Part shown: in pieces, positions 6,169 through 18,001 of the stretch
Position numbering within the stretch: the stretch's first letter is position 1
Layout of the letters: every line of letters starts with the position of its first letter
Origin: a virus
Strand: one strand, 5' to 3'
Length of the DNA stretch: 20,187 bases
Virus record (IMG/VR): IMGVR_UViG_3300010148_000171
Span: 1 to 20,187 of that record
Notes under the pieces: model-generated
What the model was told of the DNA's origin: nothing
Database searches by the model: none
What the model saw: the letters and a program-made list of their open reading frames with translations, nothing else
Made by a program: the position numbers and the translations under genes

Positions 6169-6525
6169 CTAAGATTTCGATTTTGTAGACTTAGCCCTTT
6201 TGCCTTGTGACTTGCGCTTTTGATTCACTTTAACCTGGGAAGGTTTCATTTCTGACTTGGTTTTAGGCGTCTTACTAGACACTTTCTTTGTCGGCCTGCA
6301 ATACCCCTTTCCCTTTTTGGAGTTACCGCAACTTTCGCCAGTCTTGGTATTCTTCCACTCTTCCTTATCCCAACGCTTAAGATCGCTTCCCTTTTTGCCC
6401 TTTCGTGGCTTTCCTTTTGCCTTGCGACACTTTGCGACTTGTTGGCTTGCTCTTGCGCTGGGCCACACTTTCACCCTTGCTTTTACCTTTTTTGCGCATT
6501 CGTCTAACTTCTTTTTTGCAGTCAT
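6169..6525 (-). CDS. Lysine-rich DUF5872-like protein, 118 aa
   Basis: The ATG at 6523-6525 follows AAAGGAG. The protein is extremely basic: 42 of 118 residues are Lys or Arg against 8 acidic ones. The N-terminal KVWPSARASQQVAKCRKAK and the central KRWDKEEWKNTKTGESCG with YCRPTKKVSSKTP fit the DUF5872-type pattern known from phages and large eukaryotic viruses. Four Cys (10, 33, 66, 76) could bind metal. The C-terminal tail is a disordered Lys/Ser/Thr run. Its function is not established; nucleic-acid binding or DNA condensation is an inference from composition. It is the last of three consecutive basic genes. Confidence 0.75.
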   Translation of the reverse strand: MTAKKKLDECAKKVKARVKVWPSARASQQVAKCRKAKGKPRKGKKGSDLKRWDKEEWKNTKTGESCGNSKKGKGYCRPTKKVSSKTPKTKSEMKPSQVKVNQKRKSQGKRAKSTKSKS

Positions 6526-6551
6526 TACAACAATCTCCTTTCATGGCTAGC

Positions 6552-6821
6552 TCACTTCATTGACTTTTTGCCGCGACACTTCCAGCGCTTTCTTGAAAGT
6601 TCGTTAGCACATGGTGGATTCTTACACTTCTTAATACCTGCTGACCTAGCGCAATATGAGTCACCCTTCTTAGTGCCCGGCTGAACTCGTGCCTTCCCGT
6701 CTTTCGCTTTACCTGCTTGACCGTATGAGCGTTTAACCTTTTTGCCCGTCTTTGGGTCTTTTACCATCTTAGCTTTAGCCTTGCCTTTTGCAGGTTTACC
6801 CACTTTTTTCTTTGTTGCCAT
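6552..6821 (-). CDS. Lysine-rich four-Cys protein, DUF6321-like, 89 aa
   Basis: The ATG at 6819-6821 follows AAAAGGAA. About 36% of residues are Lys or Arg. The N-terminal 30 residues are a histone-tail-like Lys/Ala/Gly stretch. The C-terminal half has ordered features: VQPGTKKGDSYCARSAGIKK, then CKNPPCANELSRKRWKCRGK. Cysteines lie at 57, 66, 71 and 82. The YCARS...PPCAN.LSR..WKC signature recurs in small phage and giant-virus proteins (DUF6321, recalled from memory). A zinc-stabilised, DNA-binding or virion-packaged basic protein is plausible but not shown. It is cotranscribed with the 118-aa basic protein downstream. Confidence 0.75.
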   Translation of the reverse strand: MATKKKVGKPAKGKAKAKMVKDPKTGKKVKRSYGQAGKAKDGKARVQPGTKKGDSYCARSAGIKKCKNPPCANELSRKRWKCRGKKSMK

Positions 6822-9624: not shown

Positions 9625-9653
9625 TTGACTATAAATCTAGTTGCTAATATAGT
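9625..9653 (+). promoter_or_regulatory. Main rightward early promoter
   Basis: TTGACT (9625-9630), a 17-bp spacer and TATAGT (9648-9653) make the best sigma70 promoter in the early region. Transcription would start near 9660, just before the 38-aa leader gene and ssb. Confidence 0.7.
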
Positions 9654-10941: not shown

Positions 10942-10997
10942 GACGACTACAGCAACGCCGTAGGATGCAATGGTTTGACTTAAAGAAAAATAAATAG
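10938..10997 (+). CDS. Possible basic micropeptide, 19 aa
   Basis: The ATG at 10938-10940 overlaps the MazG-like stop (ATGA), with GAGG eight bases upstream. The product is MRRLQQRRRMQWFDLKKNK, strongly basic and Arg-rich. The stop lies in the stem of the terminator at 10996-11009. Short ORFs can arise by chance; the coupling and composition make it worth recording. Confidence 0.35.
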   Translation: MRRLQQRRRMQWFDLKKNK

Positions 10998-11016
10998 GGC
11001 TTCGGCCCTTTTTTTT
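10996..11016 (+). terminator. Terminator after ssb operon
   Basis: AGGGC, loop TTCG, GCCCT, then a run of eight T (11009-11016): a strong intrinsic terminator closing the first rightward operon. Confidence 0.88.
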
Positions 11017-11023
11017 ATCCCAT

Positions 11024-11096
11024 CTATCAAAAGCCGATTATTAATAGGTAAAAACGATTGGCTTTCTTTTCTCCGTAACGCAATAATTAACACATC
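11024..11096 (+). promoter_or_regulatory. Promoter-like repeat module, copy 1
   Basis: Begins CTATCAA and continues TAATAGGTAAAAACGATT. A -35-like TTGGCT (11058-11063), an 18-bp spacer and AATAAT (11082-11087) follow, ending AATTAACACATC. It shares blocks and exact spacing with copies at 12211 and 17357. It directly follows a terminator and precedes the 11117 gene. Confidence 0.72.
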
Positions 11097-11116
11097 AAAG
11101 GCATGGATACTTAGCA

Positions 11117-11308
11117 ATGAATCGCAAGCAATTAATCAACCTGTTTTTAAACAACCCTGGCAAGTGCTTTAACACTAAATCAATTATGCAACTTACTAGG
11201 CTGTACACCACCGAAGCTGTACGCCAGCAAGTTTTAAGACTAAGAGCTGAAGGCTTGCCAATTAAAAGAACTAGCCAATGCTATCAGTACACCGTTTACG
11301 CTAACTAA
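11117..11308 (+). CDS. Small winged-helix-like protein, 63 aa
   Basis: The ATG lies about 20 bp after promoter module 1, with GGATAC as a weak ribosome site. The product is MNRKQLINLFLNNPGKCFNT, then KSIMQLTRLYTTEAVRQQVLR, then AEGLPIKRTSQCYQYTVYAN. That is a helix, a helix-turn-helix with a recognition helix near TTEAVRQQVLRL, and a short beta wing, as in small winged-helix DNA-binding proteins. As first gene of its operon it is a candidate regulator. It is too short and divergent to name a family. Confidence 0.7.
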   Translation: MNRKQLINLFLNNPGKCFNTKSIMQLTRLYTTEAVRQQVLRLRAEGLPIKRTSQCYQYTVYAN

Positions 11309-11321
11309 TTGGAGATACATT

Positions 11322-11609
11322 ATGCAAGAATTACTAAAAGAGTTTTTCAGCAAAGCAAGTAAGCAAGCTATCGAGGAATTCCAGGAACTACAAGCCGAGT
11401 CGCTATCTGGCATATTCGCATCTGAAGTAAACAGATCGTCAATGCTGGAAATCATAGCTGACTGGGTTAACGATCAACTAACCACCACTAGAATGGTGGT
11501 ATCATCCACTAAGGCAATCTTGATTAACGAGTCGCGCGATTCTGAGTTAGAGATTAACTGGAATCAAGCAGACGACATACTGGCAATTATCGAAGGAGAG
11601 AGGGCTTAA
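11322..11609 (+). CDS. Hypothetical acidic helical protein, 95 aa
   Basis: The ATG follows TTGGAGATACATT. The product is mostly helical and acidic: MQELLKEFFSKASKQAIEEF, a middle with SSMLEIIADWVNDQL, and an end reading NWNQADDILAIIEGERA. No motif or family recognised. The next gene follows after 2 nt. Confidence 0.7.
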   Translation: MQELLKEFFSKASKQAIEEFQELQAESLSGIFASEVNRSSMLEIIADWVNDQLTTTRMVVSSTKAILINESRDSELEINWNQADDILAIIEGERA

Positions 11610-11611
11610 TT

Positions 11612-11824
11612 ATGCATACGGAAGCACAGCACGCCGCGCTAAATGCGCTAGCAGTTAAAGCAAAGCAAGCACTAAAGGGATTCAGTCACAAGCAAGTTCA
11701 GGCTATCACAGAGACAATCAAGCCCTACAGCGACCAAGCAAAATTACTTGGTTTTAGCCATACAGATCTGTTAGTTCAGATAGGCCGATCGAACAATATC
11801 TTAGTGGATAGGAGGTGTGATTGA
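11612..11824 (+). CDS. Hypothetical helical protein, 70 aa
   Basis: The ATG follows AAGGAGAGAGGGC. The product is Ala/Lys/Gln-rich and helical (AEAQ-like start MHTEAQHAALNALAVKAKQ, then SHKQVQAITETIKPYSDQAK) and ends VDRRCD. It overlaps the next start by 1 nt (TGATG). No family recognised. Confidence 0.7.
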   Translation: MHTEAQHAALNALAVKAKQALKGFSHKQVQAITETIKPYSDQAKLLGFSHTDLLVQIGRSNNILVDRRCD

Positions 11825-12195
11825 TGGAAGTGGTTATATTATTCCCTCACTTCTTCTATTGCGGCAATAGGCACGTTAAAGGGGACTTCGACTACATAAC
11901 CGGAAAGCTTGCCAGGTTAAGCGACGAAAACAAGCGGATAATATCAGAGCAGTATGCAGAGGTTTACCGCTATCACTTCAATAAAAAGGAGTACAGGGAA
12001 GCCAGAGCCGAAGCTAATAAGCTTTTGCATAACTTTGTCGAAGAATACGGCATTAAAAAAAGTGACGTCTCAAAAGCTCGCACAGAGTCAAATAATGACC
12101 ATCAATTTAAAGAAAGGATCGAGAAACTAAGAAGGAGTCATAAAACTGGCAAATTATCCATTCTAGATATGGCAGATAGAAAAGGGGAGCGTTAG
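11824..12195 (+). CDS. Hypothetical protein, 123 aa
   Basis: The ATG at 11824-11826 follows AGGAGGT, a perfect Shine-Dalgarno site that decides this start over the TTG one codon upstream. The N-terminus is hydrophobic and aromatic (MEVVILFPHFFYCGN). The rest is highly charged and helical (KLARLSDENKRIISEQYAEV, NKKEYREARAEANKLLHNFV) with a basic end. No family recognised. The stop codon lies inside the loop of the terminator hairpin. Confidence 0.7.
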   Translation: MEVVILFPHFFYCGNRHVKGDFDYITGKLARLSDENKRIISEQYAEVYRYHFNKKEYREARAEANKLLHNFVEEYGIKKSDVSKARTESNNDHQFKERIEKLRRSHKTGKLSILDMADRKGER

Positions 12196-12208
12196 CTCTC
12201 TTTTTTTT
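12185..12208 (+). terminator. Terminator overlapping a stop codon
   Basis: GGGAGC (12185-12190), loop GTTA, GCTCTC (12195-12200), then eight T. The stem includes one G-U pair. It closes the 11117-12195 operon. Confidence 0.82.
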
Positions 12209-12210
12209 GC

Positions 12211-12283
12211 CTATCAAAAACGGTTTATTAATAGGTACAAACGATTAGAAATCTAAACCTGGTTACGCAATAATTACTACATC
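12211..12283 (+). promoter_or_regulatory. Promoter-like repeat module, copy 2
   Basis: CTATCAA ... TAATAGGTACAAACGATT, then TTAGAA (12245-12250), an 18-bp spacer and AATAAT (12269-12274), ending TTACTACATC. It starts 3 bp after the terminator T-run, as copy 1 does after its own terminator. Confidence 0.72.
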
Positions 12284-12287
12284 GAAA

Positions 12288-12300
12288 GGGGATTGGCCCC
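12288..12300 (+). other. Short GC hairpin in operon leader
   Basis: GGGG (12288-12291), loop ATTGG, CCCC (12297-12300), just after promoter module 2 and before the ribosome site GGAGATAGAAT. Only 4 bp, but it matches the hairpin-plus-GGAGATAGAA arrangement at 10293 and 18008. Confidence 0.35.
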
Positions 12301-12321
12301 AAAGTTAACGGAGATAGAATA

Positions 12322-12612
12322 ATGAAAATAGAAACAGTAAAAATAGAAGCGATATTTTTATTTGGCAAGAAATTCTGGAAAGAGAATAAAGATTCAATCA
12401 TCAAAGCAATGGGTAATGTAAAGCTATCTGTTGGTGATAAATTTGAGTTTAATGGTTATATGTATTCTGTTCACCACATAGGATTAACAAGTGAAGGGGT
12501 AATAGAGCCTCAATATGTAGGTTGGGAACTTGACTCAAAAGGGGATGTAAAAAAACCATTAATAACAGTAACAGTAAGACAGCGAACAATAATTAAGGAG
12601 AAAGCAAAATGA
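12322..12612 (+). CDS. Hypothetical protein, 96 aa
   Basis: The ATG follows GGAGATAGAATA. It has a charged N-terminus (MKIETVKIEAIFLFGKKFWK), then KLSVGDKFEFNGYMYSVHHI, a small beta-barrel-like segment, and a C-terminal strand (LITVTVRQRTIIKEKAK). No family recognised. It heads the second module-driven operon and overlaps the next start by 4 nt (ATGA). Confidence 0.7.
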   Translation: MKIETVKIEAIFLFGKKFWKENKDSIIKAMGNVKLSVGDKFEFNGYMYSVHHIGLTSEGVIEPQYVGWELDSKGDVKKPLITVTVRQRTIIKEKAK

Positions 12613-12869
12613 ACATTAAACAGTTAGTAGTTAAGTTGGTCACTGAACTTTCCGCTTACTCTCCAGTTATTAAGGAGTGCTCAACTGGTAGTGTTTATAT
12701 AACTTTTTCTGGCAGCAAGGTTAAACAAGTCAGAGTATCAAATCGTTCTGGACATAAAAACAAACCTAACCATTGGGAGCTAAGAACTTACGCCATGACC
12801 AAAAGAAATGGCTCAACAAGAATTTACAACTCAAAATCAATCAATCAACTTATTAAAGACTTTAAATAG
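12609..12869 (+). CDS. Hypothetical basic protein, 86 aa
   Basis: The ATG overlaps the upstream stop (ATGA) behind AAGGAGAAAG. The product is basic with a likely alpha-beta start (MNIKQLVVKLVTELSAYSPV) and strand-rich middle (SVYITFSGSKVKQVRVSNRS), then NHWELRTYAMTKRNGSTRIY. The layout (helix, then strands with exposed basic residues) could bind nucleic acid; this is inference only. Confidence 0.68.
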   Translation: MNIKQLVVKLVTELSAYSPVIKECSTGSVYITFSGSKVKQVRVSNRSGHKNKPNHWELRTYAMTKRNGSTRIYNSKSINQLIKDFK

Positions 12870-12880
12870 GAGATAGCGCA

Positions 12881-13123
12881 ATGAAAAAAGTTGTAATTTG
12901 CAAAGAAAAATTAAAAGGTAATGAAAGCTTGCTTTCAATTAAATGCATGCTGAGTGCTCACCAAGCACTACGAGAAAACGGTTTGATATCAAGCCGTGTT
13001 AATCTTTCAATTTCTGGAGAGCCTGAAAGTATTGAGACAATGTTTGAATTGTCAGAGTTTGACAATGGTAAGCTACAGAAAGGTCAGAGATACGCATACA
13101 TTTTAAATGGTGGTGAACTATGA
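12881..13123 (+). CDS. Hypothetical protein, 80 aa
   Basis: The ATG follows AGGAGATAGCGCA. Product: MKKVVICKEKLKGNESLLSI, then KCMLSAHQALRENGL, a strand region and an acidic middle, ending QRYAYILNGGEL. It overlaps the next ATG by 4 nt. No family recognised. Confidence 0.68.
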   Translation: MKKVVICKEKLKGNESLLSIKCMLSAHQALRENGLISSRVNLSISGEPESIETMFELSEFDNGKLQKGQRYAYILNGGEL

Positions 13124-13272
13124 AAACTCACACCAAAAAGAACGGCATGGTAATCGAGTGCCAGCAAGGCCCGATTGATTTAAGCGTGATTACACTCTAC
13201 ATGTTAATCGCCTGCTTTATCACTGCAACACTTTGTGTGCTTGGAATTTTACCAAACGGATACGGAGCATAA
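13120..13272 (+). CDS. Small single-TM protein, 50 aa
   Basis: The ATG at 13120-13122 overlaps the previous stop by 4 nt (ATGA), with GGTGG upstream. A polar basic N-terminus (MKTHTKKNGMVIECQQGPID) leads to one membrane helix (VITLYMLIACFITATLCVLG) and a short tail. The ORF fills what would otherwise be a 150-nt gap. No family recognised. Confidence 0.6.
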   Translation: MKTHTKKNGMVIECQQGPIDLSVITLYMLIACFITATLCVLGILPNGYGA

Positions 13273-13274
13273 TT

Positions 13275-13676
13275 ATGAAAGACTTTGATAATTTAAATGA
13301 TGTTTTCATACCAATGGTTGAGAGAGATTATGAAGACTTCATGATGTCTGGTGGCGCATGGTCTCCAGAGGTTGCCATAATTAACACAACAAGAGAATGC
13401 GCAAATCAATGGATTAGTAAAACATCAGGAAGGTTTGGGTGTGGTTACATATTAAAATTAAAAGAGATCGATCATGAAGAAATAGTATCAGATGAGGCTA
13501 TTTTCATAGTTACAGAATTTGGCCTAAGAGAAGGAAATGGGAGCCCTATAGTATGTGAGAGAATCGGAAGCAATATTGATAAAGTTTTTTGTTACATTGA
13601 TTGCGGAATGAAGTGTACTTATGGAAGAGTTAAATTAATGACTGTAGATTCTTTTGAAAAAGTGGAGATTGATTAA
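13275..13676 (+). CDS. Hypothetical acidic protein, 133 aa
   Basis: The frame opens at a GTG at 13233, but the ATG at 13275-13277 lies behind GGAG, avoids overlap with the 50-aa gene and is the better start. The product is acidic (MKDFDNLNDVFIPMVERDYE) with alternating strands and several Cys (RECANQW, GCGYIL, YIDCGMKCTYG). No family recognised. Confidence 0.68.
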   Translation: MKDFDNLNDVFIPMVERDYEDFMMSGGAWSPEVAIINTTRECANQWISKTSGRFGCGYILKLKEIDHEEIVSDEAIFIVTEFGLREGNGSPIVCERIGSNIDKVFCYIDCGMKCTYGRVKLMTVDSFEKVEID

Positions 13677-13678
13677 TT

Positions 13679-13834
13679 ATGTACTTTGTAATGGAAATAG
13701 ACCACATGTACCACGTACTAGACTCGGACGGAAAGAGTCAGTACTCAGCGTACTATGCAGCAGATGCACAAGATATGTGCGATCACATGAACAAAAAAAA
13801 GGCTGACCAAACCGGACAGCCAAAATCTAACTAA
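13679..13834 (+). CDS. Hypothetical protein, 51 aa
   Basis: The ATG is 2 nt after the upstream stop, with GGAG at long spacing. The product MYFVMEIDHMYHVLDSDGKS then AYYAADAQDMCDHMN looks like a small strand-helix domain with a polar tail. His, Met and Asp are frequent. No family recognised. Confidence 0.55.
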   Translation: MYFVMEIDHMYHVLDSDGKSQYSAYYAADAQDMCDHMNKKKADQTGQPKSN

Positions 13835-13852
13835 TGTAAGGAAAGATACGAT

Positions 13853-14488
13853 ATGAAAAATAACCTATCTACAGTCACAAGTCAAACAATTAGCCACATA
13901 CAACTAGCCGAAATGACGGGTAAAAGGCAGGATAATGTAAAAAGGCTTATTGAGAATCTTGCATTTAAAAATGTAATATCTTTTACTCAATTTGAGGAAA
14001 AGGGAAAAGGTAGACCACTGACAGTTTTTAACGTTAACGAGCGTGATAGTTATGTTGTAATTGCTCAACTATGTCCGATTTACACGGCTAGACTTGTTGA
14101 TTTTTGGATTGAGCACAAAAACAAAACTCCCAAAATACCGCAAACTTTATCGGAGGCCCTGCAACTCGCAGCAGACCAGGCAAAGCAGTTAGAACTTCAA
14201 GCGCCTAAAGTTGCCTTCTTCGATAAGCTTGTTGATAAAAAGGGACTAATGAATGCCACCCAGGTGGCCCAGAAGCACGGCCTATCTGCAATGAGACTAA
14301 ACAAGATACTTGTAGACCTTGGCGTATACAGTCGCACAACCAAACGGGGCCGCGTGTTTATGCAGTGGTTTATCACTAAAGGCTACGGCGAAATGAAGCA
14401 AACCGAACAAGGATTTAGCCAGGCACTATTCACCAATGCAGGCGAGGTTTGGATTAACGAGAAACTGATAACTGAAGGAATTGTATAA
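13853..14488 (+). CDS. Phage antirepressor (Rha-like N-terminus, KilAC-like C-terminus)
   Basis: 211 aa. Residues 12-80 resemble the Rha/antirepressor N-terminal domain: HIQLAEMTGKRQDNVKRLIE, then GRPLTVFNVNERDSYVV. A short helical linker (QLAADQAKQLELQAPKVAFF) is followed by a KilAC-type C-terminal domain (VDKKGLMNATQVAQKHGL, then RLNKILVDLGVY and MQWFITKGYGE). Antirepressors of this kind inactivate lysogeny repressors or rewire early transcription by binding DNA or a partner. It is closed by its own terminator and is followed by an Arc-like repressor gene, recalling the arc-ant pair of phage P22 immI, though in the opposite gene order. No CI-type target is visible in the window. Confidence 0.82.
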   Translation: MKNNLSTVTSQTISHIQLAEMTGKRQDNVKRLIENLAFKNVISFTQFEEKGKGRPLTVFNVNERDSYVVIAQLCPIYTARLVDFWIEHKNKTPKIPQTLSEALQLAADQAKQLELQAPKVAFFDKLVDKKGLMNATQVAQKHGLSAMRLNKILVDLGVYSRTTKRGRVFMQWFITKGYGEMKQTEQGFSQALFTNAGEVWINEKLITEGIV

Positions 14489-14504
14489 AATCAAACACTT
14501 GAAC

Positions 14505-14530
14505 AACCCGTCTATATGGCGGGTTTTTTA
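14505..14530 (+). terminator. Terminator after antirepressor
   Basis: AACCCG (14505-14510) and CGGGTT (14520-14525) form a stem with a 9-nt loop, followed by T-rich sequence. It separates the antirepressor from the RHH-controlled operon. Confidence 0.8.
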
Positions 14531-14584
14531 TTACCTGTAATTTACGCAAAATCACAAAAGTTTAAATTATTTTAACTGGAATGC

Positions 14585-14613
14585 TTGCATGTGACTACAT
14601 TTGTAGTTATATT
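14585..14613 (+). promoter_or_regulatory. Promoter of Arc-like/replication operon
   Basis: TTGCAT (14585-14590), exactly 17 bp, TATATT (14608-14613). The spacer contains the operator palindrome at 14594-14607. Confidence 0.68.
14594..14607. promoter_or_regulatory. Operator palindrome inside promoter spacer
   Basis: ACTACA-TT-TGTAGT is a perfect palindrome filling most of the spacer between -35 and -10, as the Arc operator does in the P22 ant promoter. The adjacent RHH gene is the obvious candidate to bind it. Confidence 0.62.
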
Positions 14614-14643
14614 TATTACACACCAAACGAAAGGAGATACAAA

Positions 14644-14787
14644 ATGTCTAATCAAGCAAAAGCAAAACCAACATCAGTTCGTATTAATCCAGAGCTAAAA
14701 GCAAAGATAGCAGCGAAGGCAAAGGAAGAGGGGAGAAGCTTCAACAATATGGTTTCTCGCATTCTTGAGCTAAGTCTGGCGCAATAA
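14644..14787 (+). CDS. Arc-like ribbon-helix-helix repressor, 47 aa
   Basis: The frame opens at 14581, but that would put the start upstream of the promoter. The ATG at 14644-14646 lies behind AAAGGAGATAC and is clearly the start. After a basic arm (MSNQAKAKPT) comes SVRINPELKAKIAAKAKEEG, the beta strand and first helix, then RSFNNMVSRILELSLAQ, the second helix. This is the full Arc/Mnt fold in about Arc's length (53 aa). It should dimerise and bind a palindromic operator; one sits in its own promoter 40 bp upstream. It is the first gene before the replication genes, so it probably controls their timing. Confidence 0.85.
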   Translation: MSNQAKAKPTSVRINPELKAKIAAKAKEEGRSFNNMVSRILELSLAQ

Positions 14788-14792
14788 AAAAA

Positions 14793-14810
14793 CCCCGGCG
14801 GCAACCAGGG
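14793..14810 (-). terminator. Weak hairpin after RHH gene
   Basis: CCCCGG and CCAGGG pair with one mismatch around a 6-nt loop. The T-run is on the minus-strand side, where no gene lies upstream. On the plus strand it may only partly attenuate transcription into the replication genes. Confidence 0.3.
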
Positions 14811-14848
14811 AATTTAATTCAAAATAACTTAATTTAGGACATTATAAC

Positions 14849-15580
14849 ATGCAATGGATAAAACACGATACTGACGCAAATCAAGACGCAAAATTACAAA
14901 ACGTTCTTTTAGATTATGGGCTAGAAGGTTATGGCTTGTACTGGTACTGCATGGAGCTAATTGCAGGCAAAGTTGACAAGAATAATATCACTTTTGAGCT
15001 TGAGCATGACGCACGCATTATTGCGCGAAATACGGGTTCAACACCTCAAAAAGTCGAAGAAATGATGAAATATTTCGTAAATATTGGGTTGTTTGAGTGC
15101 TCAAATAACGTCATAACTTGCTTAAAATTAGCGAAGCGATTAGATCAGTCGATGACAAGCAATCCGCAAATGCGTGAAATCATTAAGAATTTCAAAGATA
15201 ATGACAATCTTATTACGCATCATGACGCAATCATGACACCATCTGATAAAGTCATGCAAGATAAGATTAGATCAGATAAGAATAGAAAAGAAGATATAAT
15301 ACATTCCCGCTTCGCTGAGTTTTGGGATATGTACGGCAAGAAGGTTGATTCTAAAAAATGCCAAGCAAAGTTCAATAAGCTAACCAAGACTGATGTAGAA
15401 AAGCTGTTTGAAGTTCTCCCAAGATACATTCAATCGACACCTGATAAGCAGTACAGGAAAAACCCATTAACATGGCTGAATGGCAAATGCTGGAATGACG
15501 AAATACAAGTTAACTCTGCGCCTGGAAGAAACGTAAATCAATTTAGCGGAAACTACACTAAGCCAGAGGGGTGGAACTAA
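14849..15580 (+). CDS. Phage replication initiator (DUF4373-type N-terminal domain), 243 aa
   Basis: Residues 1-105 show the DUF4373/Lin1244-Lin1753 N-terminal winged-helix pattern: MQWIKHDTDANQDAKLQNVL, DYGLEGYGLYWYCMELIAGK, then ARIIARNTGSTPQKVEEMMK and FVNIGLFE. A polar linker (about 110-152) is followed by a replication-O-like C-terminal segment (FAEFWDMYGKKVDSKKCQAK, KNPLTWLNGKCWND). Such proteins bind the phage origin and recruit helicase loader and helicase. The gene for a DnaC-like loader follows immediately, with a 1-nt overlap. The linker is encoded by short direct repeats that could be the origin itself, as in lambda O. Its ribosome site is weak (TTAGGACATT). Confidence 0.8.
   Translation: MQWIKHDTDANQDAKLQNVLLDYGLEGYGLYWYCMELIAGKVDKNNITFELEHDARIIARNTGSTPQKVEEMMKYFVNIGLFECSNNVITCLKLAKRLDQSMTSNPQMREIIKNFKDNDNLITHHDAIMTPSDKVMQDKIRSDKNRKEDIIHSRFAEFWDMYGKKVDSKKCQAKFNKLTKTDVEKLFEVLPRYIQSTPDKQYRKNPLTWLNGKCWNDEIQVNSAPGRNVNQFSGNYTKPEGWN
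15222..15289 (+). repeat. Iteron-like repeats inside initiator gene (origin candidate)
   Basis: Two tandem 11-mers, ATGACGCAATC (15222-15232) and ATGACACCATC (15233-15243), are followed by three units at a 15-bp period starting GATAAA or GATAAG (15245, 15260, 15275). The last two share 12 of 13 bases (AGATAAGATTAGA and AGATAAGAATAGA). AT-rich sequence follows. They encode the DKxxx repeats of the linker. Confidence 0.5.
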
Positions 15581-16287
15581 TGAGTAAGAGTATAATCGAG
15601 CGAGTTAAGCAAATGGCTGCACAAGGAACTAAATACACCCATGAAGAAATGGAATTGATCAGAGCTCGAGAAAGTAAGAAAGCGCATGACGCACTTCTGA
15701 AGGAACACGAAGAGATTAGAAAATCAAAAGTTGTTGGTCGCAACGGTGTGATGCCTCTTCATGAAAAATGCACGATTGATAACTTCTTAGTGAATAGCCC
15801 TCAAATGGCAGAGGTTAGAGACTTTGCTCAGGGCTACATAAATAGCTTCCATTTGAATAATGGGACGGGTTTTATATTCAGTGGTGGAACTGGTACAGGT
15901 AAGAACCATTTAGCAGCATCGATTTGTAACGCTCTGAATGCGTCTGGTTGCTCTTGTTTGATAATAACGGTAACTGAGCTCATGCAAAAATTAAGACGCT
16001 GCTATGAGCGTGATAGCGGCCTTAATGAGGACTCATTTATTAATTCTATGGTTGAGCTTGATTTGTTAGTCATAGATGAAATTGGCTTACAGCGAGGTAC
16101 TACTGCCGAAAATCTGATACTGAATCAGATAATCGACCAAAGAACATGCAAGTTTAAACCCACTGGAATGCTGACCAATAACAACTTTGATGAGGTAAAG
16201 CAATGTCTAGGAGAAAGGATAATGGATCGCATGAGAATGAACGGCGGAGCATGGAAGAATTTCACCTGGCAAAGTTACCGCAAATAG
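15580..16287 (+). CDS. dnaC: DnaC-like helicase loader (AAA+)
   Basis: 235 aa, close to E. coli DnaC (245 aa) throughout the ATPase core. Walker A is GGTGTGKN (102-109), in DnaC's unusual GKN form; Walker B is LLVIDEIG (162-169). MLTNNN (197-202) is sensor 1 and GERIMDRMRM (211-220) holds the arginine finger region. The ATG at 15580-15582 overlaps the initiator stop and follows AGAGGGG; a GTG three codons upstream is less likely. The protein loads replicative helicase DnaB onto origin DNA. No phage helicase or helicase gene is in the window, so it probably recruits host DnaB. It forms a replication pair with the DUF4373-type initiator. Confidence 0.92.
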   Translation: MSKSIIERVKQMAAQGTKYTHEEMELIRARESKKAHDALLKEHEEIRKSKVVGRNGVMPLHEKCTIDNFLVNSPQMAEVRDFAQGYINSFHLNNGTGFIFSGGTGTGKNHLAASICNALNASGCSCLIITVTELMQKLRRCYERDSGLNEDSFINSMVELDLLVIDEIGLQRGTTAENLILNQIIDQRTCKFKPTGMLTNNNFDEVKQCLGERIMDRMRMNGGAWKNFTWQSYRK

Positions 16288-16421
16288 ACTTTGACCGGAT
16301 GATCTACTCAAAGATGGCCCATGATGATTTTACTAAATGGGTCGTATGTGGCTACAAAGTACAGCAATTTATGTACTGGGAGTGGGGCGTTACGAACTGC
16401 CCCGATTGGAAAGTTAGTTAA
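16251..16421 (+). CDS. Hypothetical protein overlapping dnaC end, 56 aa
   Basis: This frame covers the 130 nt between dnaC and the methyltransferase. The ATG at 16251 gives MEEFHLAKLPQIDFDRMIYS, then KMAHDDFTKWVVCGYKVQQF and a Trp-rich end. An alternative ATG at 16203 has a better-spaced GAGG but would overlap dnaC by 85 nt. I cannot decide which start is used. No family recognised. Confidence 0.5.
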   Translation: MEEFHLAKLPQIDFDRMIYSKMAHDDFTKWVVCGYKVQQFMYWEWGVTNCPDWKVS

Positions 16422-16442
16422 TTTAAATTTTAAGGTGAAGAT

Positions 16443-16958
16443 ATGAAAGGTTATACAGGTAGTAAAACAAAAGAAACAATCCGCGACTTATGGCAGACAC
16501 CGAAAGAGATCTTTAATTATTACAACGATAGATTTAACTTTAACTGTGATGTTGCGTGTTCAGATGAAAATAAACTAGTTAATGAGCACTGGCTAACAGA
16601 AAAGGATAATGCGCTTTGTTACTCAACCGATTGGGGATCTGTAAACTGGTGTAATCCGCCATACAGCGACATAGGGCCGTGGGTAAATAAAGCAATAGAG
16701 CAAATGGATCGCGGATGTCTCACTGTAATGCTAATACCAGCTGACACTTCTGTTAAATGGTTTAAGAATGCATTCGAAAACTGTACAGAGTGCCACTTTA
16801 TAAGCGGAAGACTTGCGTTTATCAATGCTGAAACTCAAAAGCCAGTGAGTGGAAACAATAAAGGTTCAGTTGTGTTTGTGTTCGATCCAAAGTCGCCAGT
16901 TAAGAAATTTGTCTCACTTTTAGATAGAAAAGAAATGATGGGAGTAAAGAGCAAATGA
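16443..16958 (+). CDS. dam: Phage DNA N6-adenine methyltransferase (Dam-type)
   Basis: 171 aa, the length of the phage N6-adenine methyltransferase family (PF05869 type). It shows DLWQTPKEIFNYYN (15-28), the catalytic NPPY at 71-74 in WCNPPYSDIGPWVNKAIEQM, LIPADTSVKWFKNAF, and SGRLAFINAETQ (121-132). These enzymes methylate adenine, often in GATC, which may shield phage DNA from restriction or affect packaging and replication control. Recognition sequence cannot be told here. It starts behind AAGGTGAAGAT and overlaps the RusA gene by 4 nt (ATGA). No matching endonuclease is present, so it is an orphan methylase. Confidence 0.9.
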   Translation: MKGYTGSKTKETIRDLWQTPKEIFNYYNDRFNFNCDVACSDENKLVNEHWLTEKDNALCYSTDWGSVNWCNPPYSDIGPWVNKAIEQMDRGCLTVMLIPADTSVKWFKNAFENCTECHFISGRLAFINAETQKPVSGNNKGSVVFVFDPKSPVKKFVSLLDRKEMMGVKSK

Positions 16959-17353
16959 GATACCAATTCAAAATCGAGCCTGTTGCAGCGTCAAGGCCAC
17001 GAGTTACACAAAAAGGTACATATTATCCAAAGAAATATACGCAGTTCAGAGAGGCTATGAGCGTCATTTGTAGGCATACAAATTTTAATAAAATTGATGA
17101 AGGAGTTGCAATCAAAGTTACTATGCTGCTTTGTATCCCAATGCCGAAATCCTGGAGCAAGAAAAAACGCGCTGAACATTTGGGCAAATACAAGGTTACT
17201 AAGCCTGACAATGACAACTACGAGAAAGCGGTTTATGACGCGCTGAACGGTCACGCATGGCACGATGATAGTCAGATAGCATGGAATGATACTAAGAAGA
17301 TTTACGCCGAAGAGGGAGAGATTATAGTTGTAGTTGAAGCGCTTGATAACTAA
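16955..17353 (+). CDS. rusA: RusA-type Holliday junction resolvase
   Basis: 132 aa, close to E. coli RusA (120 aa). The family signature KPDNDNYEKAVYDALNG (83-99) is followed by WHDDSQI (102-108); Asp85, Asp87 and an Asp of the 104-105 pair match the catalytic acidic residues and Lys91 the conserved lysine. RusA is a homodimer that cleaves Holliday junctions symmetrically, here to resolve replication or recombination intermediates before packaging. The ATG overlaps the methyltransferase stop. It is the last gene before promoter module 3. Confidence 0.92.
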   Translation: MRYQFKIEPVAASRPRVTQKGTYYPKKYTQFREAMSVICRHTNFNKIDEGVAIKVTMLLCIPMPKSWSKKKRAEHLGKYKVTKPDNDNYEKAVYDALNGHAWHDDSQIAWNDTKKIYAEEGEIIVVVEALDN

Positions 17354-17356
17354 ACC

Positions 17357-17430
17357 CTATCAAGCGAGCATTGATTAATAGGCACAAACGATTGGCGTGT
17401 TAGTTACTGATTAGCAATAATTAACACGTC
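17357..17430 (+). promoter_or_regulatory. Promoter-like repeat module, copy 3
   Basis: CTATCAA ... GATTAATAGGCACAAACGATT, with TTGGCG (17392-17397), an 18-bp spacer and AATAAT (17416-17421), ending TTAACACGTC. One extra base lies in the first block compared with copies 1 and 2. It follows rusA without a terminator and precedes the 17459 gene. Confidence 0.7.
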
Positions 17431-17458: not shown

Positions 17459-17710
17459 ATGAGAGATTCAAGGTTATATAGAAACAGTGATAAACAACCA
17501 AAGAAAGGGGATATAATAAGGTCTGGTAATACCCATTTGGAGGTAAAAGGTGTTTCAAAGTGTGGGTATAAGCTTTTTATAAAAGGAATGCCAATGACGG
17601 ACTATTGCAATACCGGGTGTTGGTATCTTGTTCCTGGTGAAATTGTTGATTTAGATACAGAGTATCCCGAATGGTTTTTAAAGAAATTTGGCGGAAAATT
17701 GGAGAAATAA
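17459..17710 (+). CDS. Hypothetical protein, 83 aa
   Basis: The frame opens at a TTG at 17447, but the ATG at 17459 lies behind GGATATAGAA, the usual site form here. Product: MRDSRLYRNSDKQPKKGDII, then NTHLEVKGVSKCGYKLFIKG and a WYLVPGEIVD segment, a small beta-barrel-like fold, ending KKFGGKLEK. No family recognised. It is the first gene after promoter module 3. Confidence 0.7.
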   Translation: MRDSRLYRNSDKQPKKGDIIRSGNTHLEVKGVSKCGYKLFIKGMPMTDYCNTGCWYLVPGEIVDLDTEYPEWFLKKFGGKLEK

Positions 17711-17712
17711 AA

Positions 17713-17811
17713 ATGGAAAAGAAACTACTATCAATCGGAGTTGTTTTGAGTGTCGGTATTATCGCGTTCGCCGATCCTATCGCTAAGTTAATTACGTTTG
17801 GAGGTCTTTAA
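17713..17811 (+). CDS. Small hydrophobic peptide, 32 aa
   Basis: The ATG at 17713-17715 follows GGAGAAATAA, 2 nt after the upstream stop. MEKK is followed by a hydrophobic stretch (LLSIGVVLSVGIIAFA) and DPIAKLITFGGL: a short membrane helix or uncleaved signal-like peptide. Strong site and tight packing support it. Confidence 0.55.
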   Translation: MEKKLLSIGVVLSVGIIAFADPIAKLITFGGL

Positions 17812-17812
17812 A

Positions 17813-18001
17813 ATGCGTCCTGAAAACTACTACTCGATTAAAGAACAACGTGACCACAATTGCAAGGAGCGCAAAGAAAAAGAGCTCAAAGCTCACTGGG
17901 AAGATGTTCTAGCGAATGACTTTAGCAAATCGCTATGGTCTATCATGTTCATGATTGCGGCTATGATTGTTTCACTATTCGTGCTTGCATTTGGAGGATA
18001 A
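17813..18001 (+). CDS. Tail-anchored small membrane protein, 62 aa
   Basis: The ATG at 17813 lies behind a perfect GGAGGT, 1 nt after the upstream stop, and decides the start over the TTG at 17798. A highly charged N-terminal half (KEQRDHNCKERKEKELKAHW) leads to a C-terminal membrane helix (LWSIMFMIAAMIVSLFVLAF). Orientation is probably N-in. No family recognised. It is the last early gene before the two-way terminator. Confidence 0.65.
   Translation: MRPENYYSIKEQRDHNCKERKEKELKAHWEDVLANDFSKSLWSIMFMIAAMIVSLFVLAFGG

Follow-up and report, generated by a model that had tools for sequence, protein, structure and literature searches.

Host OxyR is known to act on phage promoters, among them Mu mom, where its action is repression, P22 gtr and Pf4 xisF4. 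At E. coli oxyS, OxyR sites lie at -66, -44 and -35; oxidized OxyR takes a 22-bp pair and reduced OxyR uses a pair one helical turn further apart (PMC5002191, PMC3953959), the published distances being 22 bp for IR1-IR2 and 31 bp for IR1-IR3 (PMC5002191). The sites of P22 gtr are described as spaced for the reduced form; OxyR on the upstream pair activates, and OxyR(C199S), locked in the reduced form, suffices for expression (PMC2909390). In the Pseudomonas phage Pf4 one ATAG-N7-CTAT overlaps the -10 of the prophage excision gene xisF4 (PMC12395586), and the mom promoter of phage Mu is bound by host OxyR (Bolker and Kahmann 1989, cited in PMC4461284). Here we analyse a promoter-like module present in three copies in a 20,187-nucleotide stretch of viral DNA (IMG/VR record IMGVR_UViG_3300010148_000171; hereafter the window). 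We consider it probable that host OxyR controls these three predicted sigma-70 promoters and thereby activates early operons of the phage.

The three copies begin with CTATCAA at 11024, 12211 and 17357, all on the plus strand. A preliminary description of the window had listed the blocks CTATCAA, TAATAGG, ACGATT (within AACGATT) and GCAATAATTA in each copy, and all of them were found at the places given. The gap between CGATT and GCAATAATT, which it had called invariant, is exactly 20 bp in 3/3 copies. We found that AACGATT-N18..22-GCAATAATTA matches the window three times, always on the plus strand, and not once in 100 dinucleotide shuffles. No other family of direct repeats in the window is as long as the one these copies form (76 nt, 63-76% identity), and a three-copy module of this kind exceeds chance by far. 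As had been noted, two copies stand near a terminator T-run: copy 1 begins about 9 bp past that of a terminator-like hairpin and copy 2 begins 3 bp past its own. Copy 3 begins 4 bp past the stop codon of a RusA-like gene (17353). Each copy precedes its own operon, in agreement with the separate operons proposed earlier.

Every copy contains a promoter core with a -35 of TTRGNN, 18 bp and a -10 of AATAAT, and the sigma-70 geometry with an upstream regulator site that had been suggested is supported. Generic sigma-70 matches were no more frequent in this region than in shuffles (26 versus 24.8), so the hexamers alone prove nothing and the case rests on the conserved upstream blocks. The best conserved of these is ATTAATAGG-N-A-N-AAACGATTRG. 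A 15-bp dyad, ATAGG-N-A-N-AAACGAT (ATAG-N7-CGAT), abuts the -35 in each copy and is always centred at -43 relative to the predicted start. A second, weaker dyad, of which CTATCAA is the inner half, lies 31, 31 and 32 bp further 5', centre to centre, in copies 1, 2 and 3. This distal dyad is complete in copy 3 only; the terminator T-run takes the place of its outer half in copies 1 and 2. Among 50 shuffled windows the highest pair score was 17.4, which copy 3 (30.9) and copy 2 (24.3) exceed; copy 1, with the weakest distal site, scores 18.3, a value that its proximal site reaches with another offset. A weak third half-site occurs at +22 of copy 3 only. Taken by sequence, each module is supported as a sigma-70-type promoter with an upstream regulator site, and the weak -35 (TTGG or TTAG) beside an abutting dyad agrees with the earlier suggestion of an activator.

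The preliminary description had taken CTATCAA and TTAATAG as the arms of one imperfect dyad. We rejected this single operator, since the arms do not keep a constant distance (10 bp in copies 1 and 2, 11 bp in copy 3) and each has a better-pairing partner on its outer side; the arms are the facing halves of two separate dyads.

In all copies the proximal ATAG-N7-CGAT is one base off the OxyR consensus ATAG-N7-CTAT. The exact core pattern matched only six times in 257 Gb of bacterial genomes, for the most part in ways that look like chance; as an element of chromosomes, the tight phage form is therefore not common. Exact sequence sharing thus offers no argument, and we used a matrix comparison with permuted controls instead. 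A matrix was made from 16 phage sites and run over bacterial loci of one order, with no prior consensus. Its best match fell within 250 bp 5' of ahpC in 21 of 30 loci, compared with a mean of 3.6 and a maximum of 9 for 300 column-permuted matrices on the same loci, which are related to each other. For oxyR the count was 15 of 30 (permuted mean 3.0, maximum 10), while two other LysR-type genes stayed near the null of about 3 (ilvY 5/30, metR 2/30). With only the three window sites in the matrix, the best match still fell at ahpC in 14/30 and at oxyR in 11/30 loci. When E. coli was looked at as a single genome, the oxyS and ahpC/dsbG promoters scored, and katG and dps did not. Judged by these letters, the window dyad matches the OxyR box.

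The distance between dimer sites was compared in viruses and hosts. Around the bacterial matches a partner site lay at 22 bp in 16 of 37 loci and at 31 bp in 13 of 37; the phage-derived matrix recovers both known OxyR spacings in hosts. Around the phage sites the partner peaks at 31/32 bp, a peak reached by 0 of 1000 shuffles. We then used a strict pattern, ATAG-N7-CTAT-Nx-ATAG-N7-CGATTR, with x = 16-17 for 31/32 bp, x = 7 for 22 bp and x = 11-12 as control. In IMG/VR it was found in 16 contigs at x = 16-17, in 4 at x = 7 and in none at the control spacing, these being counts of partly redundant contigs and not of independent events. A near-identical pattern (CKATTR for CGATTR) gave the reverse in 395 Enterobacterales genomes, with none at x = 16-17 and 19 genomes at x = 7, some of the latter matches directly 5' of oxyR. 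Among the 16 contigs, three identical ones and one other have the match in long open frames, and one near-identical group has no clear -10; among the 4 at 22 bp, two identical AT-rich contigs and one more look like chance. The viral matches L233, L234, L240 and L241 have the CGATT-N22-(-10) geometry of the window, in genomes of 42-55% GC. The 31/32-bp spacing is shown by computation to be virus-specific, versus 22 bp in the host.

This control also bears on another account of the module, namely plain constitutive sigma-70 promoters duplicated in one phage, with upstream conservation due to ancestry or UP-element-like sequence and no regulator. TTGG-18-AATAAT is passable as a promoter and the three copies could be recent duplicates, but the dyad blocks stay while the filler has diverged, the dyad is common to unrelated phages whose filler does not match, and the contigs number 0 at N11-12 against 16 at N16-17. 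We regard this account as very improbable.

First, wide patterns run over IMG/VR had given mostly chance matches in coding regions. The core with its -10 recurs in IMG/VR contigs L002, L005/L006 and L013, and also in L015 and L081. It is carried by Jilinvirus phages of Escherichia, Salmonella, Klebsiella and Enterobacter, including the coliphages ep3 and ECO1230-10, mostly as two copies each and usually intergenic. Pectobacterium phage Wc4 has two copies, and the element was also found in Vibrio phage H2, ICP2, VP41s3 and Vibrio phage 1.067.O. In Vibrio phages, Jilinvirus, Wc4 and others, such elements stand in front of operons. Where the host of a carrier is known, it belongs to Enterobacteriaceae, Pectobacterium or Vibrio, and the phages nearest to the window by terminase infect Vibrio. 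In one of them, Vibrio phage 199E37-1, whose terminase is 86% identical, a single strong pair occurs at 31 bp, with CGATT-N22-GATAAT behind it. In this phage, and also in L002 and Vibrio phage 1.067.O, the element stands directly after rusA, as does copy 3 in the window. Over 19 phage sites the proximal centre lies at -41 to -44 and the -35/-10 spacer is 16-19 bp; the dyad is fixed against the -35 while the spacer varies, which ties it to the -35, like an abutting activator.

Two of the carriers differ from the window in geometry. In the Zobellviridae ICP2 (L101, 41-85, minus strand) and VP41s3 (L104, 12017-12061, minus strand) a full OxyR-type site abuts the -35, as in the window, but the spacing is the 22 bp of the oxidized form and the -35 is a perfect TTGACA. 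These sites aim at the ends of opposite-strand genes, including that for anaerobic ribonucleotide reductase in VP41s3, and an antisense or small-RNA promoter is possible. In the Jilinvirus copies (L076, L077, L079, L080) a further dyad, (A)TTTACCTAAGTAAA(T), lies between -35 and -10, 3' of the OxyR-like dyad. It is likely a phage operator combined with an OxyR-like site.

A LysR-type gene (PF00126) above the cut-off was found in 0 of 14 phage records (the window and 13 other carriers); Vibrio phage 1.067.O has one sub-threshold PF00126 stretch. Because the OxyR-type box is common to unrelated phages and to the host ahpC and oxyR promoters, and because no phage LysR-type gene was found, a host regulator is the better reading. 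This departs from the preliminary description, which had suggested a phage-specific regulon signal, with phage proteins (RHH, winged helix-turn-helix or antirepressor) as candidate binders, and had considered a phage-modified polymerase, which a host regulator makes unnecessary. A phage-encoded activator that binds the dyad, for example the 11117-11308 protein, the RHH protein or the Rha-like protein, would make the likeness to OxyR a convergence. The sites are unusually uniform within the window, and the first gene behind copy 1 could regulate the set; the product of this gene had earlier been read from its letters as small and winged-helix-like, but matches no PHROG. The Jilinvirus spacer dyad may be a phage operator, yet the OxyR-like dyad itself occurs in phages without shared regulators, singles out the host promoters of ahpC and oxyR but not those of ilvY or metR, and reproduces the 22- and 31-bp spacings of OxyR. 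We therefore hold a phage-encoded activator to be improbable.

We propose that one OxyR dimer would bind ATAG-N7-CGAT at -43 and contact the weak -35, while a second would bind the weaker site 31-32 bp 5', at about -74/-75. The pair would be spaced as published for reduced OxyR and placed about 8 bp further 5' than the -66/-35 pair of E. coli oxyS, and the proximal dimer would thereby take the position of the activating dimer (-44) instead of lying over the -35. Being already in the unstressed host at phage entry, OxyR would recruit RNA polymerase to the early operons behind the three copies; if the redox state of the host changed, their output would shift. The form acting here is perhaps the reduced one. 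The computation shows the site and its geometry, its likeness to OxyR boxes, its presence in unrelated phages and its viral spacing; that OxyR binds, that it activates and does not repress, which redox form acts and that the timing is early we infer.

Compared with the oxyS-oxyR region, the window has the same ATAG-N7-CTAT-type dyads, a dimer site at about -44 beside the -35 and a partner at one of its two distances (22 or 31 bp). In oxyS, reduced OxyR takes the pair -66/-35 and oxidized OxyR the pair -66/-44, whereas the window has a 31-32 bp pair at -74/-75 and -43 and, unlike oxyS, no 22-bp partner was seen in its modules. P22 gtr and Salmonella opvAB are OxyR/Dam-controlled promoters (PMC2909390, PMC3350482). 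The gtr promoter, like the window modules, is carried by a phage and has its OxyR half-sites spaced as for the reduced form. However gtr has three half-sites and four GATC, undergoes Dam-dependent phase variation and serves a lysogenic-conversion gene, while the window modules have two half-sites, come in three copies and stand before replication and small-ORF (open reading frame) operons. The alternative AB/BC occupancy of three half-sites seen in gtr and opvAB has no counterpart in the two half-sites of the window. The three modules contain no GATC. A Dam switch is thus not to be expected, and Dam-dependent switching of the gtr/opvAB type was rejected. Mu mom and Pf4 xisF4 resemble the window, as proposed, in having host OxyR on a phage promoter, but at mom OxyR action depends on the DNA methylation state, and neither is a repeated early-operon promoter. 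In the open-licence papers searched we found no description of OxyR sites as a repeated promoter module of phage early operons, nor of a 31/32-bp spacing that is specific to viruses and puts the proximal dimer at -43; such an absence is weak evidence.

The same OxyR site could also work with the opposite sign. OxyR, reduced or oxidized, would then repress or gate the early operons, which would rise when it leaves, for example upon oxidative stress or by titration on replicated phage DNA. The proximal dimer would touch the -35. Repression by OxyR is known at agn43, where it acts from one site, and at P22 gtr, where it acts from the promoter-proximal site (PMC2909390); in Shewanella the reduced form represses host genes (PMC8787470). 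However a repressed promoter would need no weak -35, and a weak -35 (TTGG/TTAG) with a centre fixed at -41 to -44 is an activated layout, comparable to the oxyS dimer at -44. We consider repression unlikely, though less so than the other alternatives.

Several points weigh against activation by host OxyR. At many host genes, the reduced form of OxyR is reported to repress or not to activate. Host sites are looser than the phage consensus, and a phage non-LysR binder with a similar taste is conceivable. The right half of the proximal site is CGAT, not CTAT; of the distal site, copies 1 and 2 show no more than the inner half, and the upstream offset of 31 bp is not the best-scoring one in copy 1. 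The expectation that the blocks stand before operons in related phages is not contradicted outright, since the element recurs in relatives, in three of them after rusA, but a strong site was not found in four of the five terminase relatives scanned (340E47.2, PVA1, 4_4512, ZP9). The window is a 20-kb fragment.

Drivers of phage early operons are rarely identified as host regulators from sequence alone. If OxyR activates the three operons, infection by such phages would depend on oxyR and on redox state. The site geometry bears on the old question whether reduced OxyR, spaced at 31 bp but moved to -43, can activate, and is a sequence signature for finding OxyR-dependent phage promoters. More tentatively, many unrelated phages may independently use host OxyR with the virus-specific geometry (31/32 bp, proximal site at -43), their promoters would then be driven by OxyR in the unstressed cell and fall on oxidation. 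Such a redox-gated infection switch would be made of a host regulator, yet respond in the direction contrary to that of the OxyR regulon of the host itself.

The features of the three modules and their operons are collected in the table. From the kind of gene, those behind the three copies are presumably early genes. In the copy 1 operon ORFs 1-3 have no PHROG, and ORF 4 is phrog_19546 (unknown function).

Table. Positions in the window of the module blocks, the predicted promoter elements and the operons behind them.
Feature	Position	Strand	Remark
Intrinsic terminator AGGGCTTCGGCCCT + T-run	10996..11016	+	terminator scan; just 5' of copy 1
Terminator-like hairpin GGGAGC-GTTA-GCTCTC + T8	12185..12208	+	by eye, not in scan list; just 5' of copy 2
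AACGATT block starts, copies 1/2/3	11053 / 12240 / 17387	+	
GCAATAATTA block starts, copies 1/2/3	11080 / 12267 / 17414	+	
Copy 1, inner half (CTATCAA) of distal OxyR-like dimer site	11024..11030	+	31 bp from proximal; outer half is T-rich terminator tail
Copy 1, proximal OxyR-like dimer site ATAG-GTAAAAA-CGAT	11044..11058	+	centre 11051 = -43
Copy 1, -35 TTGGCT, 18 bp, -10 AATAAT	11058..11087	+	predicted +1 near 11094
Copy 2, inner half (CTATCAA) of distal dimer site	12211..12217	+	31 bp spacing; outer half degenerate (T-run)
Copy 2, proximal dimer site ATAG-GTACAAA-CGAT	12231..12245	+	centre -43
Copy 2, -35 TTAGAA, 18 bp, -10 AATAAT	12245..12274	+	predicted +1 near 12281
Copy 3, complete distal dimer site ATAA-CTAAACC-CTAT	17346..17360	+	32 bp from proximal; overlaps rusA stop codon
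Copy 3, proximal dimer site ATAG-GCACAAA-CGAT	17378..17392	+	centre -43
Copy 3, -35 TTGGCG, 18 bp, -10 AATAAT	17392..17421	+	predicted +1 near 17428
Conserved predicted transcript start ACATCAAA	11092..11099	+	copy 1
Conserved predicted transcript start ACATCGAA	12279-12286	+	copy 2
Conserved predicted transcript start ACGTCAAA	17426-17433	+	copy 3
Copy 1 operon, four small ORFs	11117..12195	+	63, 95, 70, 124 amino acids
Copy 2 operon	12322..17353	+	small ORFs first, then genes through RusA
Rha/Ant-like antirepressor	13853-14488	+	copy 2 operon
Arc/RHH-like protein	14581-14787	+	copy 2 operon
Replication initiator	14849-15580	+	copy 2 operon
DnaC-like loader	15571-16287	+	copy 2 operon
DNA adenine methyltransferase	16443-16958	+	copy 2 operon
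RusA-like resolvase	16955-17353	+	copy 2 operon
Copy 3 operon, three small ORFs	17459..18001	+	unknown function

The predicted transcript start, ACAYCRAA, is kept along with the promoter in several related phages (L005, L078, L079), and OxyR gives no explanation for its role. A near-consensus promoter without an OxyR-like site, TTGACT-17-TATAGT, lies 5' of the single-stranded DNA-binding protein gene cluster (9625-9653, plus strand). The module is therefore not used by all rightward transcription.

Other repeats and genes of the window were also observed. The terminator hairpin GGGCTTCGGCCC occurs twice (10997 and 10294), on either side of the short operon that precedes copy 1, and further terminator-like repeats (family D2) lie at 721, 5067 and 18961. 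On the minus strand, 6169-6821 holds two adjacent ORFs (118 and 89 amino acids) that are extremely rich in Lys and Arg, the second with cysteines. GATC is under-represented in the window, with 48 sites against about 72-74 expected, and the phage has the adenine methyltransferase-like gene listed above.

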